NCBI GenBank assembly: GCA_029260575.1
Contig: JAJDDB010000035.1
Location: forward strand, 310,001-374,000
Length of the DNA: 64,000 nt
Reading direction: 5' to 3'
Origin: Phycisphaerales bacterium
Lineage (GTDB): Bacteria > Planctomycetota > Phycisphaerae > Phycisphaerales > SM1A02
Shown: positions 38,722 to 43,336 of the stretch, piece after piece
Layout of the letters: the number at the start of each line of letters is the position of its first letter
Position numbering within the stretch: position 1 is the first letter of the stretch
Made by a program: the position numbers and the translations under genes
Notes under the pieces: model-generated
Seen by the model: the letters and a program-made list of their open reading frames with translations, nothing else
What the model was told of the DNA's origin: nothing
The model's database searches: none

Positions 38722-40128
38722 ATGGCAAAAACAACGACCAAGCGCAACTCGCGCCGCACCGCACGAAAGCCGGCGCCCGAGATCGCCACGTTTCCAAACG
38801 CGGTTCGGTATCTCTATGAACAGACAAACGTCGAGCGCATGCGACTTGTGCGCGTCGACAAGAACGTCTTCAAGCTCGAACGCATGCGCGATCTTCTTGA
38901 AGCGCTGGGCAATCCACATGAACAGGTTCGGATGATCCACGTTGCGGGAACGGTTGGCAAAGGTTCGACCGTTTCCATGATTGCCTCGATGCTGCGCGGC
39001 TGCGACTACGCCGTTGGTGAATATACGAGCCCGCATCTGATCGATGTGCGCGAGCGCATTGCCATCAACGGGCAAATGATTTCCAAGAATGATTTCACCA
39101 CGCTCACGCACGACATCGCAAACGCAGCACTCCAGGCGAAACTCGAACCGACATTCTTCGAGCTGATGACCGCAATTGCGTTTCAGCATTTTGCGGATCA
39201 AGCAGTCGACGTCGCTGTGATAGAAACCGGCCTGGGCGGACGGCTGGATTCCACAAATGTCATCACTCCCGAAGTCAGCGTCATCACCCGAGTGGACATC
39301 GACCACACCCAACTGCTCGGGCGGGCAATCACGGATATTGCACGCGAAAAAGCAGGGATTCTGAAGCGGGGTGTGCCCGCAATCACCGGCGGACAGGAGC
39401 CGGAAGTCGAAGCTGTCATCCGCGAAGTCGCTGAAGAAATCGGCGCGCCCATCCGCGTGATCGACAAGGACATCGAGTTCAGCAGCAGGTTCTGCGTCTC
39501 TCCGGAATTGGGCCCGCACACGCGCATCTGCCTCATTACCGAAAACAGTCAGTTCATGCACCTGCCGGTGCCGCTGCCGGGCGAACACCAAGCTATTAAC
39601 TGCGCGCTTGCTCTGGCGGCAATCGATGTGCTCAAAGGCGCCGGCTTCGAGTTCGAAGAAGTCGCGCTGAACAACGGCCTGGCTGAAACCAAAACACCGG
39701 GGCGCATGGAGCTCATCTGGACGCAGCCGCGCATTCTTGTCGATGGCGCGCACAATGCTGCAGCACTGGGCACGCTGATGCGATGTGTCGGCGCACATGT
39801 TCCCTATGACTCCATGGTCTGCATCTTCGGCTGCTGCGAAGACAAAGATATTCGGCGCCTGCTCGAAAAGGTCTCGCTCGGCGGAGACAAAGTCATCTTC
39901 ACCCGGGCTAAGGGAAATCCCCGTGCAGCTGACCCCGGCGAGCTGCAGCGACAATTCAATGACATCAGCGGCAAGATGTCTCAGGTCGCCAAGGATCTGC
40001 CCGAGGCAATCCGACTTGCATCCCGAGCGGTCGGCCGGGATGACCTCATCTGCGTGACCGGCAGTTTCTATCTCGTCGGCGAAGCTAAGAAATTCCTCGC
40101 TGAGGTGTCCAGGAAACAGACAAACTGA
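38722..40128 (+). CDS. folC: Folylpolyglutamate synthase / dihydrofolate synthase
   Basis: The protein has 468 residues. It ligates glutamate to (dihydro)folate with ATP in the cytoplasm. The P-loop is 'HVAGTVGKGSTVSMIASML' (about residues 73-91), followed by 'EYTSPHLIDVRERIAING', 'VAVIETGLGGRLDSTNV' and 'VDIDHTQLLG', all typical of FolC. The C-terminal Mur ligase domain has 'PGRMELIWTQPRILVDGAHN'. A basic N-terminal stretch of about 20 residues is extra. It stands upstream of leuS on the same strand but leuS has its own promoter region, so the two are probably separate units. Confidence 0.95.
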   Translation: MAKTTTKRNSRRTARKPAPEIATFPNAVRYLYEQTNVERMRLVRVDKNVFKLERMRDLLEALGNPHEQVRMIHVAGTVGKGSTVSMIASMLRGCDYAVGEYTSPHLIDVRERIAINGQMISKNDFTTLTHDIANAALQAKLEPTFFELMTAIAFQHFADQAVDVAVIETGLGGRLDSTNVITPEVSVITRVDIDHTQLLGRAITDIAREKAGILKRGVPAITGGQEPEVEAVIREVAEEIGAPIRVIDKDIEFSSRFCVSPELGPHTRICLITENSQFMHLPVPLPGEHQAINCALALAAIDVLKGAGFEFEEVALNNGLAETKTPGRMELIWTQPRILVDGAHNAAALGTLMRCVGAHVPYDSMVCIFGCCEDKDIRRLLEKVSLGGDKVIFTRAKGNPRAADPGELQRQFNDISGKMSQVAKDLPEAIRLASRAVGRDDLICVTGSFYLVGEAKKFLAEVSRKQTN

Positions 40129-40162
40129 CTGCTTGTGCCAGTGTTCGTATGTACATTGCTTG

Positions 40163-40190
40163 TTGCCTGAGCCCGATGCGTCGTTACACT
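40163..40190 (+). promoter_or_regulatory. Candidate promoter of the leuS leader (TTGCCT, 16 bases, TACACT)
   Basis: TTGCCT at 40163 and TACACT at 40185-40190 are 16 bases apart. The -10 box ends 11 bases before the ATG of a 24-codon leader ORF. Confidence 0.5.
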
Positions 40191-40201
40191 CTGCTGTCGT
40201 G

Positions 40202-40276
40202 ATGTCATCCGTGACCAATTCCAATTCGAAATCCGCATCAGACTCGCCTCAGCTTGGTGCAGAGGTCCTGCTGTAG
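40202..40276 (+). CDS. Putative leader peptide of leuS (24 codons, ends Val-Leu-Leu)
   Basis: An ORF of 24 codons reads MSSVTNSNSKSASDSPQLGA followed by EVLL and a TAG stop. Three Leu codons (CTT, CTG, CTG) lie in its last seven, with CTG CTG directly before the stop. It lies between a candidate promoter and an intrinsic terminator in the 259-base gap before leuS. There is no Shine-Dalgarno site, and the start may be used in a leaderless way. The position before a leucyl-tRNA synthetase fits transcription attenuation by leucyl-tRNA supply. The coding status rests on context only. Confidence 0.4.
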   Translation: MSSVTNSNSKSASDSPQLGAEVLL

Positions 40277-40315
40277 GTCCGCGCGAGCGTCACACACCCC
40301 ACCTCCGAACATCGG

Positions 40316-40346
40316 CAGGGTCTCGCTCAGGCGGGACCCTGTTTTA
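40316..40346 (+). terminator. Intrinsic terminator in the leuS leader
   Basis: CAGGGTC pairs with GACCCTG and the stem continues inward by T-G and CGC/GCG to a TCAG loop, 11 base pairs in all, followed by TTTTA. It ends 42 bases before the leuS ATG, so it must be conditional or leaky. The segment CAGAGGTCC at 40260 could pair with GGACCCTG and compete with it. Confidence 0.75.
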
Positions 40347-40387
40347 CATTCCGCGCACGCACACAATTCAACCGATGGTTTTCAGAT

Positions 40388-43336
40388 ATGAGCAACGCAA
40401 CCAACGCAGAGACTGCCCGCCCCGCCGACGCCGCCAACGAACACCCGTTCCGGTATGACGCTGCACTGGCGGACGCAATCGAACTGCGCTGGCAGCAGTA
40501 CTGGGATGCCCACGCAACATTCCGAGCGACAAACCCCGGCGATGCGGACTTCAATCCCCGCCAGCCCAAGTTCTACTGTCTGGATATGTTCCCCTATCCA
40601 TCAGGAGCCGGGCTGCACGTCGGCCACCCGGAAGGCTACACCGCAACCGACATCATCAGCAGGTACAAACGCCACCGCGGGTTCAACGTGCTGCACCCCA
40701 TGGGCTGGGATGCGTTCGGGCTACCCGCAGAGCAATACGCCATAGCCACAGGCGTACACCCCGCAAAAACAACCCGCCAGGCAATCGAAACGTTTCGCAG
40801 ACAACTGAAGCGCTTCGGCTTCAGTTACGACTGGTCGCGCGAGTTTGCCACGATCGACCCGGAGTATCACCACTGGACGCAGTGGATTTGGTTGCAGGCG
40901 TACAACGCGTGGTACGACACCGAACAGGATCGTGCGCGCCCGATTGACGAACTGATCGCAGAATTCAATTCCGCTGCGCGCCCGCCGATGCTCAACCCGC
41001 AGGCAGCAGAATATTCCGGCGCAGGGGATCTGCCTGAAGGAACGCGACTCGCTGCGTGGAATGAACTCGATCCTGATGTGCAGCGAATGGTGATCGACTC
41101 CTATCGCCTTGCGTACACAGCTCGGCAAACGGTCAATTGGTGTCCGAAGCTCGGCACAGCCCTGGCCAATGAAGAAGTCATCGACGGCAGGAGCGAACGT
41201 GGCGGCCATCCTGTGGTGCGCATGCCGCTGACGCAGTGGATGTTCCGCATCACGTCGTATGCTGACCGTCTGCTGGCGGATCTGGATCTCTGTCAGTGGC
41301 CGCATTCAACGCGCGTCATGCAGGAGCAGTGGATCGGCCGCAGCGAAGGCGCGGAAATCGAATTCCCGCTGCTGGATGCAACCAAACAGACTCTGGGAAT
41401 GGGGCTGCGCGTCTTTACTACTCGCCCGGACACGATCTTCGGCGCGACGTACATGGTCGTTGCGCCGGAACACCCGATGGTCGAACAGGCAATCGACGCA
41501 CCAAATCAGCAGACTGACGTCAGCAAGCTGCGCGCGTATGTCGCAGCCGCAACCGGTCGAAGCGATGTCGAACGCCAGGAAGCAAAGCAAAAGACCGGCG
41601 TCTTCACCGGCTACGCCGCGCACAACCCCGCCACCGGCGAGGCCATTCCCGTGTGGACAAGCGACTACGTACTGATGGGATACGGAACAGGCGCGATCAT
41701 GGCTGTACCCGGGCAGGATCAGCGCGACTGGGACTTTGCGACCAAATTTGATCTGCCGATTGTTCGAACAGTGCAGCCTCCAAACGACTTCGACGGAGAA
41801 GCGTTCGTTGGTGACGGCCCCGCAATCAACAGCGCAAATGATGAAGTGTCACTCAACGGCATGGATGTCATTCAGGCCAAGACAACAATCATCGAGTGGC
41901 TGACGCACAAACAGAAGGGCATGGGCAAGATCAACTACAAGCTGCGCGACTGGTTGTTCAGCCGCCAGCGGTATTGGGGTGAGCCGTTCCCGATCGTATA
42001 TGACGAACACGGAAATCACTATCCGGTTGATGAAGCTGCACTGCCGGTCGAGTTGCCTGATCTGCAGGACTATCAACCGCCGGAGTCTGACAAACCCCAG
42101 CCGATGCTGGCAAAGGCAACGGACTGGCTGCACACGACAGCGGGCGAAGCGGGTGTTTGTGCTGAACTGTTGCCTCCGGAAACGCGGGTGCGGCGCGAAG
42201 CCAACACGATGCCAAACTGGGCGGGTTCGTGCTGGTATTACCTGCGCTTCTGTGACCCGAATTGCGCAGATCGATTGACTTCAAAGGCAGCTGAACAGTA
42301 TTGGATGGGAACATCCAATGCACTCGGACTCCAGTCCGTGGAATCGAACAATCAACAATCCCAAGCTCAGGAAAGCCCGGGCATTGCACCCGGCGTCGAT
42401 CTCTACATCGGCGGAGCGGAACACGCGGTGCTGCATCTGCTGTACGCGCGTTTCTGGCACAAAATCCTGTTTGATCTGGGCGTTGTCTCGACACCCGAAC
42501 CATTTCACAAGCTGTTCCATCAGGGCATGATCACAAGCTTCGCATATCAGGATTCCACCGGCAGGCTCACACCGATCGATGAAGTCGAACAGCGCGATGA
42601 GAAACACGTCCTGAAATCGACAGGCGAAGAGGTCGTGCAGATCAACGCCAAGATGAGTAAGACGCTCAAGAACGTCATCAACCCCGATGATGTCATTGCT
42701 GAATACGGAGCAGATACATTCCGTCTATACGAGATGTACATGGGGCCGCTGGATGCTGCCAAGCCGTGGAATCCGCGCGATATCATCGGTGTGTACCGCT
42801 TCCTGCAACGTGCCTGGCGGCTGACTGTCAGTGAACAGACCGGCGAGCTGCGCATTGCAGAGACTGCTGACAACACGATCGAAAAGCAACTGCACCGGAT
42901 GATTCATAAGGTCGGCGACGATATCGAACGGCTGTCGTTCAATACCGCAATTGCAGCGATGATCGAGTTCGTCAACACAGCCACCGCGGCTGGTGAACTG
43001 ACTCGCGAGCAACTGCTGCGTTTCGCTATCACGTTGTCACCGTTTGCGCCGCACATGGCAGAAGAACTCTGGCAGAAACTGGGCAATCCCACGTCAATCG
43101 CCCGCGAACCCTGGCCGGCTGTTGATGCTTCCTTGCTGCACGATGATGAAATCGAGCTGCCGGTGCAGATTCTCGGCAAGGTGCGCAGCAAGATCACAGT
43201 CCCCGCCGACGCCGATCAGAAAACCGTGGAAGATGCAGCGCTGAAAGATGACAAGATCAAGACCCAACTCCAAGGCAAGACCGTGCGCAAAATCATCATT
43301 GTGCCCGGCAAGATCGTCAACATCATCGCCAACTGA
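40388..43336 (+). CDS. leuS: Leucyl-tRNA synthetase
   Basis: The protein has 982 residues, over 100 longer than typical bacterial LeuRS (about 860). The class I motif HVGH is at residues 77-80 and KMSKT at about 755-759. The CP1 editing domain has 'FTTRPDTIFGATYMVVAPEHP' and 'VPGQDQRDWDFATKFDLPI'. 'NWAGSCWYYLRFCDPN' and 'VDLYIGGAEHAVLHLLYARF' are in place. Extra segments occur at about residues 195-230 ('LIAEFNSAARPPMLNPQAAE' and following) and at about 650-672 (Ser/Gln/Asn-rich 'VESNNQQSQAQESP'). The leader upstream contains a promoter, a short ORF and a terminator that suggest attenuation. Confidence 0.97.
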   Translation: MSNATNAETARPADAANEHPFRYDAALADAIELRWQQYWDAHATFRATNPGDADFNPRQPKFYCLDMFPYPSGAGLHVGHPEGYTATDIISRYKRHRGFNVLHPMGWDAFGLPAEQYAIATGVHPAKTTRQAIETFRRQLKRFGFSYDWSREFATIDPEYHHWTQWIWLQAYNAWYDTEQDRARPIDELIAEFNSAARPPMLNPQAAEYSGAGDLPEGTRLAAWNELDPDVQRMVIDSYRLAYTARQTVNWCPKLGTALANEEVIDGRSERGGHPVVRMPLTQWMFRITSYADRLLADLDLCQWPHSTRVMQEQWIGRSEGAEIEFPLLDATKQTLGMGLRVFTTRPDTIFGATYMVVAPEHPMVEQAIDAPNQQTDVSKLRAYVAAATGRSDVERQEAKQKTGVFTGYAAHNPATGEAIPVWTSDYVLMGYGTGAIMAVPGQDQRDWDFATKFDLPIVRTVQPPNDFDGEAFVGDGPAINSANDEVSLNGMDVIQAKTTIIEWLTHKQKGMGKINYKLRDWLFSRQRYWGEPFPIVYDEHGNHYPVDEAALPVELPDLQDYQPPESDKPQPMLAKATDWLHTTAGEAGVCAELLPPETRVRREANTMPNWAGSCWYYLRFCDPNCADRLTSKAAEQYWMGTSNALGLQSVESNNQQSQAQESPGIAPGVDLYIGGAEHAVLHLLYARFWHKILFDLGVVSTPEPFHKLFHQGMITSFAYQDSTGRLTPIDEVEQRDEKHVLKSTGEEVVQINAKMSKTLKNVINPDDVIAEYGADTFRLYEMYMGPLDAAKPWNPRDIIGVYRFLQRAWRLTVSEQTGELRIAETADNTIEKQLHRMIHKVGDDIERLSFNTAIAAMIEFVNTATAAGELTREQLLRFAITLSPFAPHMAEELWQKLGNPTSIAREPWPAVDASLLHDDEIELPVQILGKVRSKITVPADADQKTVEDAALKDDKIKTQLQGKTVRKIIIVPGKIVNIIAN

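Follow-up and report, generated by a model that had tools for sequence, protein, structure and literature searches.

The window analyzed here is a stretch of 64,000 nucleotides (nt) from a Phycisphaerales bacterium (contig JAJDDB010000035.1, positions 310,001 to 374,000), in which the leucine-tRNA ligase gene leuS is preceded by a short leader. Comparison with related sequences indicated that leuS is very probably controlled by a ribosome-mediated transcription attenuator. A leader-peptide attenuator had been proposed at this site in a first-pass annotation, and the proposal was supported, as the leader reading frame, its Leu codon, and the stem were conserved together in other genera, and sister leaders of ileS and thrS carried the codons cognate to their enzymes. 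More broadly, leaderless leader-peptide attenuators probably form a family in the Phycisphaerales, controlling synthetase genes with one amino acid per gene (Leu for leuS, Ile for ileS, and Thr for thrS, all three in the genome of the window and four relatives), and would be a translation-based counterpart of the T-box network. The elements at the leuS site in the window are as follows.

40163-40168, plus strand: -35 element TTGCCT, recognized in the sequence, with a 16-nt spacer to the -10 element.
40185-40190, plus strand: -10 element TACACT, recognized in the sequence and in relatives.
40202 (ATG; alternative in-frame GTG at 40199) to 40274-40276 (TAG), plus strand: leader open reading frame (ORF) of 24 codons, MSSVTNSNSKSASDSPQLGAEVLL.
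40243-40248, plus strand: region 1, CTCGCC, over Asp-Ser-Pro codons, potential pairing partner of region 2.
40253-40255, plus strand: putative control codon CTT, codon 18, seven codons ahead of the stop, at the conserved Leu position.
40281-40289, plus strand: region 2, GCGCGAGCG, putative 5' strand of the antiterminator, directly behind the stop, from complementarity to region 3 in relatives.
40316-40326, plus strand: region 3, 5' arm of the predicted terminator, CAGGGTCTCGC, from folding and covariation.
40331-40345, plus strand: region 4, 3' arm of the predicted terminator, GCGGGACCCTG, with TTTT, from folding and covariation.
40388-43336, plus strand, ATG at 40388: leuS, the gene proposed to be regulated (TIGR00396, 969.8 bits, cut-off 548.4).

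The promoter-like pair, the 24-codon ORF, and the 11-base-pair (bp) terminator with its TTTT ahead of the leuS ATG were thus all located where the first-pass annotation had placed them, and its count of three Leu codons in the ORF was correct. The terminator hairpin, CAGGGTCTCGC-TCAG-GCGGGACCCTG (11 bp, 40316-40341, followed by TTTT at 40342-40345), had a predicted folding energy of -21.7 kcal/mol compared with -7.1 in 200 shuffles (z -7.1), none of which equaled it. Neither the promoter nor the terminator at the leuS leader was listed by a generic scan of the window for such elements, because the T run has just four residues and the match to a promoter is modest. By themselves, the elements of the window are suggestive but ordinary.

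Planctomycete-type leuS loci, 142 in number with 126 distinct upstream regions, were used for comparison, the relatives compared being of genera other than that of the window, while 44 further leuS loci from outside the planctomycetes (actinobacterial and one of Rhodothermales) were left unread. A blind detector, indifferent to leucine, scored a -10-like hexamer 5-11 nt ahead of a start codon whose ORF spans 8-35 codons, together with a hairpin followed by T residues. Positives were obtained in 22 of the 126 distinct upstream regions, compared with 0.2 ± 0.4 in dinucleotide shuffles (20 rounds). A Leu codon stood 6-9 codons ahead of the stop in 20 of these 22 leaders, so that the joint conservation of Leu codons and stem, which the first-pass annotation had named as a check, was found in related genomes. 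Five more leaders (L002, L041, L150, L156, and L160) were accepted on visual inspection, which was not blind to codons, L032 was excluded for its weak hairpin and the absence of Leu at the expected position, and near-copies were dropped (L041, L179, L182, L183, and L184), which left 21 leaders. A covariance model, R1, was built on the part behind the stop, because a MAFFT alignment of complete leaders placed the ORF part wrongly. Among 28 new loci matched by this model, the seven that stood before leuS, with ORFs picked by eye, brought the accepted leaders to 28. Some of the leader-bearing loci were recorded only as from Planctomycetota or Phycisphaerales bacteria, and the others came from genomes in the family of the window and in a second family of its order.

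The comparison bears on one alternative, by which the hairpin is a plain terminator of the upstream gene folC and the promoter and ORF are there by chance. An intrinsic terminator would be ordinary behind folC, which ends at 40128 on the same strand. However, the hairpin lies about 190 nt beyond folC and behind a promoter, and relatives repeat, far above chance, the order of promoter, ORF, and terminator with a Leu codon at a constant position; this alternative is highly improbable.

The codons of the leaders pointed to leucine. A Leu codon was present 6-9 codons ahead of the stop in all 28 accepted leaders, and at seven or eight codons in 24 of them. Across 21 leaders, Leu accounted for 63 of 353 codons, compared with 763 of 10552 in 11 leuS genes (p 1e-10). 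Of the 63 Leu codons, 28 were CTT, compared with 50 of 763 in those genes (p 8e-15); in the leuS of the window, the share of CTT among Leu codons is 1.4%. Ser-Pro was encoded within about eight bases ahead of the conserved Leu place in 10 of 21 leaders. In the second family, the L150 leader, MNPSPIQLGDELLTTR, resembles the end of the window's leader peptide (...DSPQLGAEVLL). The leuS leaders are thus short ORFs, predicted to be translated, with codons cognate to the enzyme. Stalling had been proposed to occur at the last two codons, both CTG, while the comparison replaced these with the CTT at codon 18 as the conserved control codon. The L179 leader, which nearly duplicates that of L121, has an Arg codon in place of the conserved Leu codon behind Ser-Pro, possibly a natural loss of the control codon.

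In 18 of the 19 leuS leaders measured, from which L150 and L156 were left out for want of a TANNNT, a -10-like hexamer was found 6-9 nt ahead of the start codon. The window is the nineteenth, where the distance from the end of the -10 element is 11 nt to the ATG or 8 nt to the GTG. Nine further leaders of the 19 had TTGATY or TTGCCY, with a spacer of 16 nt as in the window. Because the -10 box lies 6-9 nt ahead of most leader starts, the leader mRNAs are probably leaderless. Planctomycetes are among the phyla named, from one genome, as having a leaderless or S1 signature (PMC5397173), and the trpL leader transcript of S. meliloti starts at its own ATG (PMC7298713). In three leuS regions with no leader element (L128, L129, and L130), a -10-like hexamer lies a few bases ahead of the leuS ATG, and the leuS mRNA of such relatives may itself be leaderless.

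In most leaders, the terminator was GGCCTCGC...GCGAGGCC or a near form, placed 24-38 nt behind the stop (48 nt in L003). Both sides had changed in 6 of 10 aligned pairs among 26 leaders, near-copies included. An intrinsic terminator is therefore predicted between the leader ORF and the gene by these two-sided changes and the z of -7.1 in the window. Most leaders also carried, behind the leader stop, a GCGCGCGA-like stretch that was the best match to the terminator 5' arm. When a 14-nt window was slid along the 21 leaders, complementarity to the 5' arm was maximal 4 nt behind the stop, where the mean was -11.7 kcal/mol and t, after correction by shuffles, was -4.8; inside the ORF, the mean was -6 to -9 kcal/mol. 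When 5' arms were swapped among species, in 30 replicates with coarser steps and fewer shuffles, the strongest value was -4.1. Within the ORF, complementarity to region 2 was highest about the Ser-Pro codons, where several neighboring offsets gave a t of about -2.9 (20-21 leaders, uncorrected for the number of offsets). The conserved antiterminator hence differs from the one first proposed. Pairing of CAGAGGTCC with the terminator 3' arm is possible (-10.8 kcal/mol), but its support in relatives was weak and scattered, and as the main antiterminator it gave way to the GC-rich stretch directly behind the stop, paired with the 5' arm. Competing folds were also modeled as had been suggested. Over the 21 leaders, the modeled probability that the 5' arm is captured ahead of synthesis of the 3' arm was 0.71 with the ribosome at the Leu codon compared with 0.48 at the stop, and the difference exceeded the shuffled-spacer mean in 16 of 21 (p 7e-4); in the window the difference was nil.

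On the mechanism that we infer, RNA polymerase would start at or a few bases from the leader start codon and yield a leaderless leader mRNA. With charged tRNA-Leu plentiful, the ribosome would pass the CTT, reach the stop, and cover region 2, whereupon the terminator (regions 3 and 4) would form and transcription would end ahead of leuS. With charged tRNA-Leu scarce, the ribosome would stall at the CTT and mask region 1, leaving region 2 free to capture the terminator 5' arm (regions 2 and 3) and allow readthrough into leuS. Since the GCGCGCGA-like stretch lies where a terminating ribosome would sit, the element would be a classical attenuator.

A leader ORF might instead act chiefly on translation, mRNA stability, or re-initiation, with the stem only marking a transcript end; leader ORFs are widespread among bacteria, and some do not regulate transcription (PMC4833913). 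The leader stop, however, lies 80-154 nt ahead of leuS in the 17 leaders measured, which would be far for re-initiation, a strong predicted terminator stands between the leader ORF and leuS, and region 2 is placed where a terminating ribosome would mask it. Such a role is very unlikely to be the chief one.

Several observations weigh against transcription attenuation as described. Of the 126 distinct upstream regions, 99 had no element by detector or eye (detector only for ten), and in many of the element-free regions that were read the end of folC is near leuS. Two blind positives, L032 and L179, have no Leu codon at the expected position, several leaders have a single Leu codon, and CTT makes up 13.9% of Leu codons over six genes of the window, where it is uncommon rather than rare. 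Taken leader by leader, the duplex of regions 2 and 3 was better than shuffles (p<0.05) in only 3 of 26 cases, with the L152 terminator placed by hand in this test, and the permutation test over all leaders was modest (p 0.018; combined p 0.002). The weak point is the antiterminator of the window itself. Its duplex of regions 2 and 3 is no better than shuffles (p 0.54), modeled capture is 0.66 with a stalled and 0.65 with a terminating ribosome, the stop-to-terminator gap of 38 nt is longer than usual, and the T run, as noted, is short. The best alternative fold in the window did, however, weaken from -14.4 kcal/mol with the ribosome at codon 23 to -9.6 at the stop.

Leaders of the same design were found on other synthetase genes. 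The R1 model had three matches ahead of ileS, behind ORFs rich in Ile codons. An ileS set of 31 upstream regions (30 loci of 70 genomes with a match, plus L250) contained such leaders in 12 cases on reading and in 10 by the blind detector, all 10 with at least three Ile codons. The genome of the window has the ileS leader MMPHNAAITSIAITKPR (L132/L253/L286) with a hairpin and the promoter TTGACC/TATCCT, at G000:C35:176338-176419 on the minus strand, 134 kb ahead of the window and on its contig; the ileS gene behind it is cut by the locus and scored 616.5, compared with an ileS cut-off of 621.4. In three ileS leaders (L268, L270, and L262), a longer ORF reads through the conserved stretch that normally lies behind the stop. 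A second model, R2, made from the ileS leaders, matched ahead of the thrS of G010, behind MIIQTATSTTTTTRRLSQA. Thr-rich leaders, with 7-11 Thr codons and a hairpin behind them, were found at five of eight thrS loci, three of them by the blind detector and all three Thr-rich, while the other three loci (L314, L315, and L317, the last with an uncertain start) showed no such leader on reading. In the genome of the window (G000), the thrS leader is MNNRSITMTTTTTTPEGG with a hairpin (L316, on C27, upstream of 47302), and the other Thr-rich thrS leaders are those of G008, G009, G010, and G036; these five genomes have leaders on leuS, ileS, and thrS together. Two ileS leaders (L254 and L250) and two thrS leaders (L316 and L320) were likewise accepted on visual inspection that was not blind to codons. 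The R1 and R2 matches away from these three genes resembled, in those inspected, ordinary terminators behind other genes.

Leader codon content follows the enzyme. The cognate amino acid accounted for 85 of 464 residues in leuS leaders (Leu), 51 of 215 in ileS leaders (Ile), and 42 of 88 in thrS leaders (Thr). Counts of Leu, Ile, and Thr were 85, 12, and 42 in leuS leaders, 7, 51, and 12 in ileS leaders, and 2, 3, and 42 in thrS leaders (chi-square p 5e-37); some of these leaders were chosen with codons in view, and the blind counts are safer. Applied to other synthetase regions, the blind detector had no match among 35 (PF00587, PF00579, and PF01409 loci, which we take to be serS, proS, glyS, tyrS, trpS, and pheS), including the six PF01409 (PheRS alpha) loci. 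The reading frame in this control was taken from the family match, and 8 of 51 loci, cut or short, were unusable. The valS of the window's genome showed no leader on reading.

The same terminator could in principle serve a T-box, another riboswitch, or a binding protein such as LeuRS itself, given that in other phyla many synthetase genes are under T-box control (PMC1262725) and that the ThrRS of E. coli is autoregulated (mentioned in PMC2965389). However, no Rfam family reached its gathering score in the window, and the sole match with E up to 1 near leuS (39000-42000) was istR, at 0.68; for the T-box family in particular, there was no match at E up to 1 within 39000-42000 and none at the gathering score in the window. 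A protein regulator, moreover, would not need Leu, Ile, and Thr codons in the leuS, ileS, and thrS leaders, respectively. Regulators of these kinds thus have very little probability as the users of the terminator.

Like the proposed attenuator, T-box riboswitches would increase the expression of a synthetase whose cognate tRNA is uncharged, as they are known to do, but in these the tRNA binds the RNA directly and no translation is involved. The pheST attenuator differs from the leuS leaders in its Phe codons and its other sequences. In gamma-proteobacteria, it places a synthetase operon under ribosome-mediated attenuation (PMC1262725), as is proposed here for leuS. The closest precedent is that of the Streptomyces leuS attenuators, predicted in S. 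coelicolor and S. avermitilis by Seliverstov et al. (2005; PMC1262725), so that leader control of a synthetase, which the first-pass annotation had called uncommon, is indeed uncommon but not without a predicted leuS case. These also have a leader ORF with Leu codons before leuS, a terminator, and a predicted antiterminator (PMC1262725). They belong to another phylum, and the TCG-CC(N)-CTT core, the CTT preference, and the GCGCGCGA segment are described here for planctomycete leaders. RNA-seq of S. lividans identified a leaderless leuL2, MRAVRLLLSEPR, before leuS, as well as leaders with cognate codons before thrS, alaS, and trpS, of which thrL and trpL2 are reported as leaderless (PMC8079986). 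The S. lividans thrL has two Thr codons and no clear terminator, in contrast to the Thr-rich planctomycete thrS leaders with their hairpins, and the leader table of that report contains no ileS leader (PMC8079986). No report of leader-peptide attenuation in planctomycetes or of ileS was found in the literature listings searched, which left subscription journals mostly outside, and the 2010 attenuation survey of Lopatovskaya et al. could hold planctomycete cases.

The proposed leuS attenuator is of a known kind, now in another phylum, and is apparently one of a set with those of ileS and thrS; if an isoleucine leader peptide does control ileS, that gene would be a new target. If working, such leaders would give synthetase genes a third means of sensing their own charged tRNA, in addition to T-boxes and repressor proteins. 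Planctomycetes have compartment-like cell plans, and the coupling of translation to transcription in them has been debated. Such an attenuator requires ribosomes to follow RNA polymerase closely, and a working copy would therefore be direct evidence of coupling in planctomycetes.

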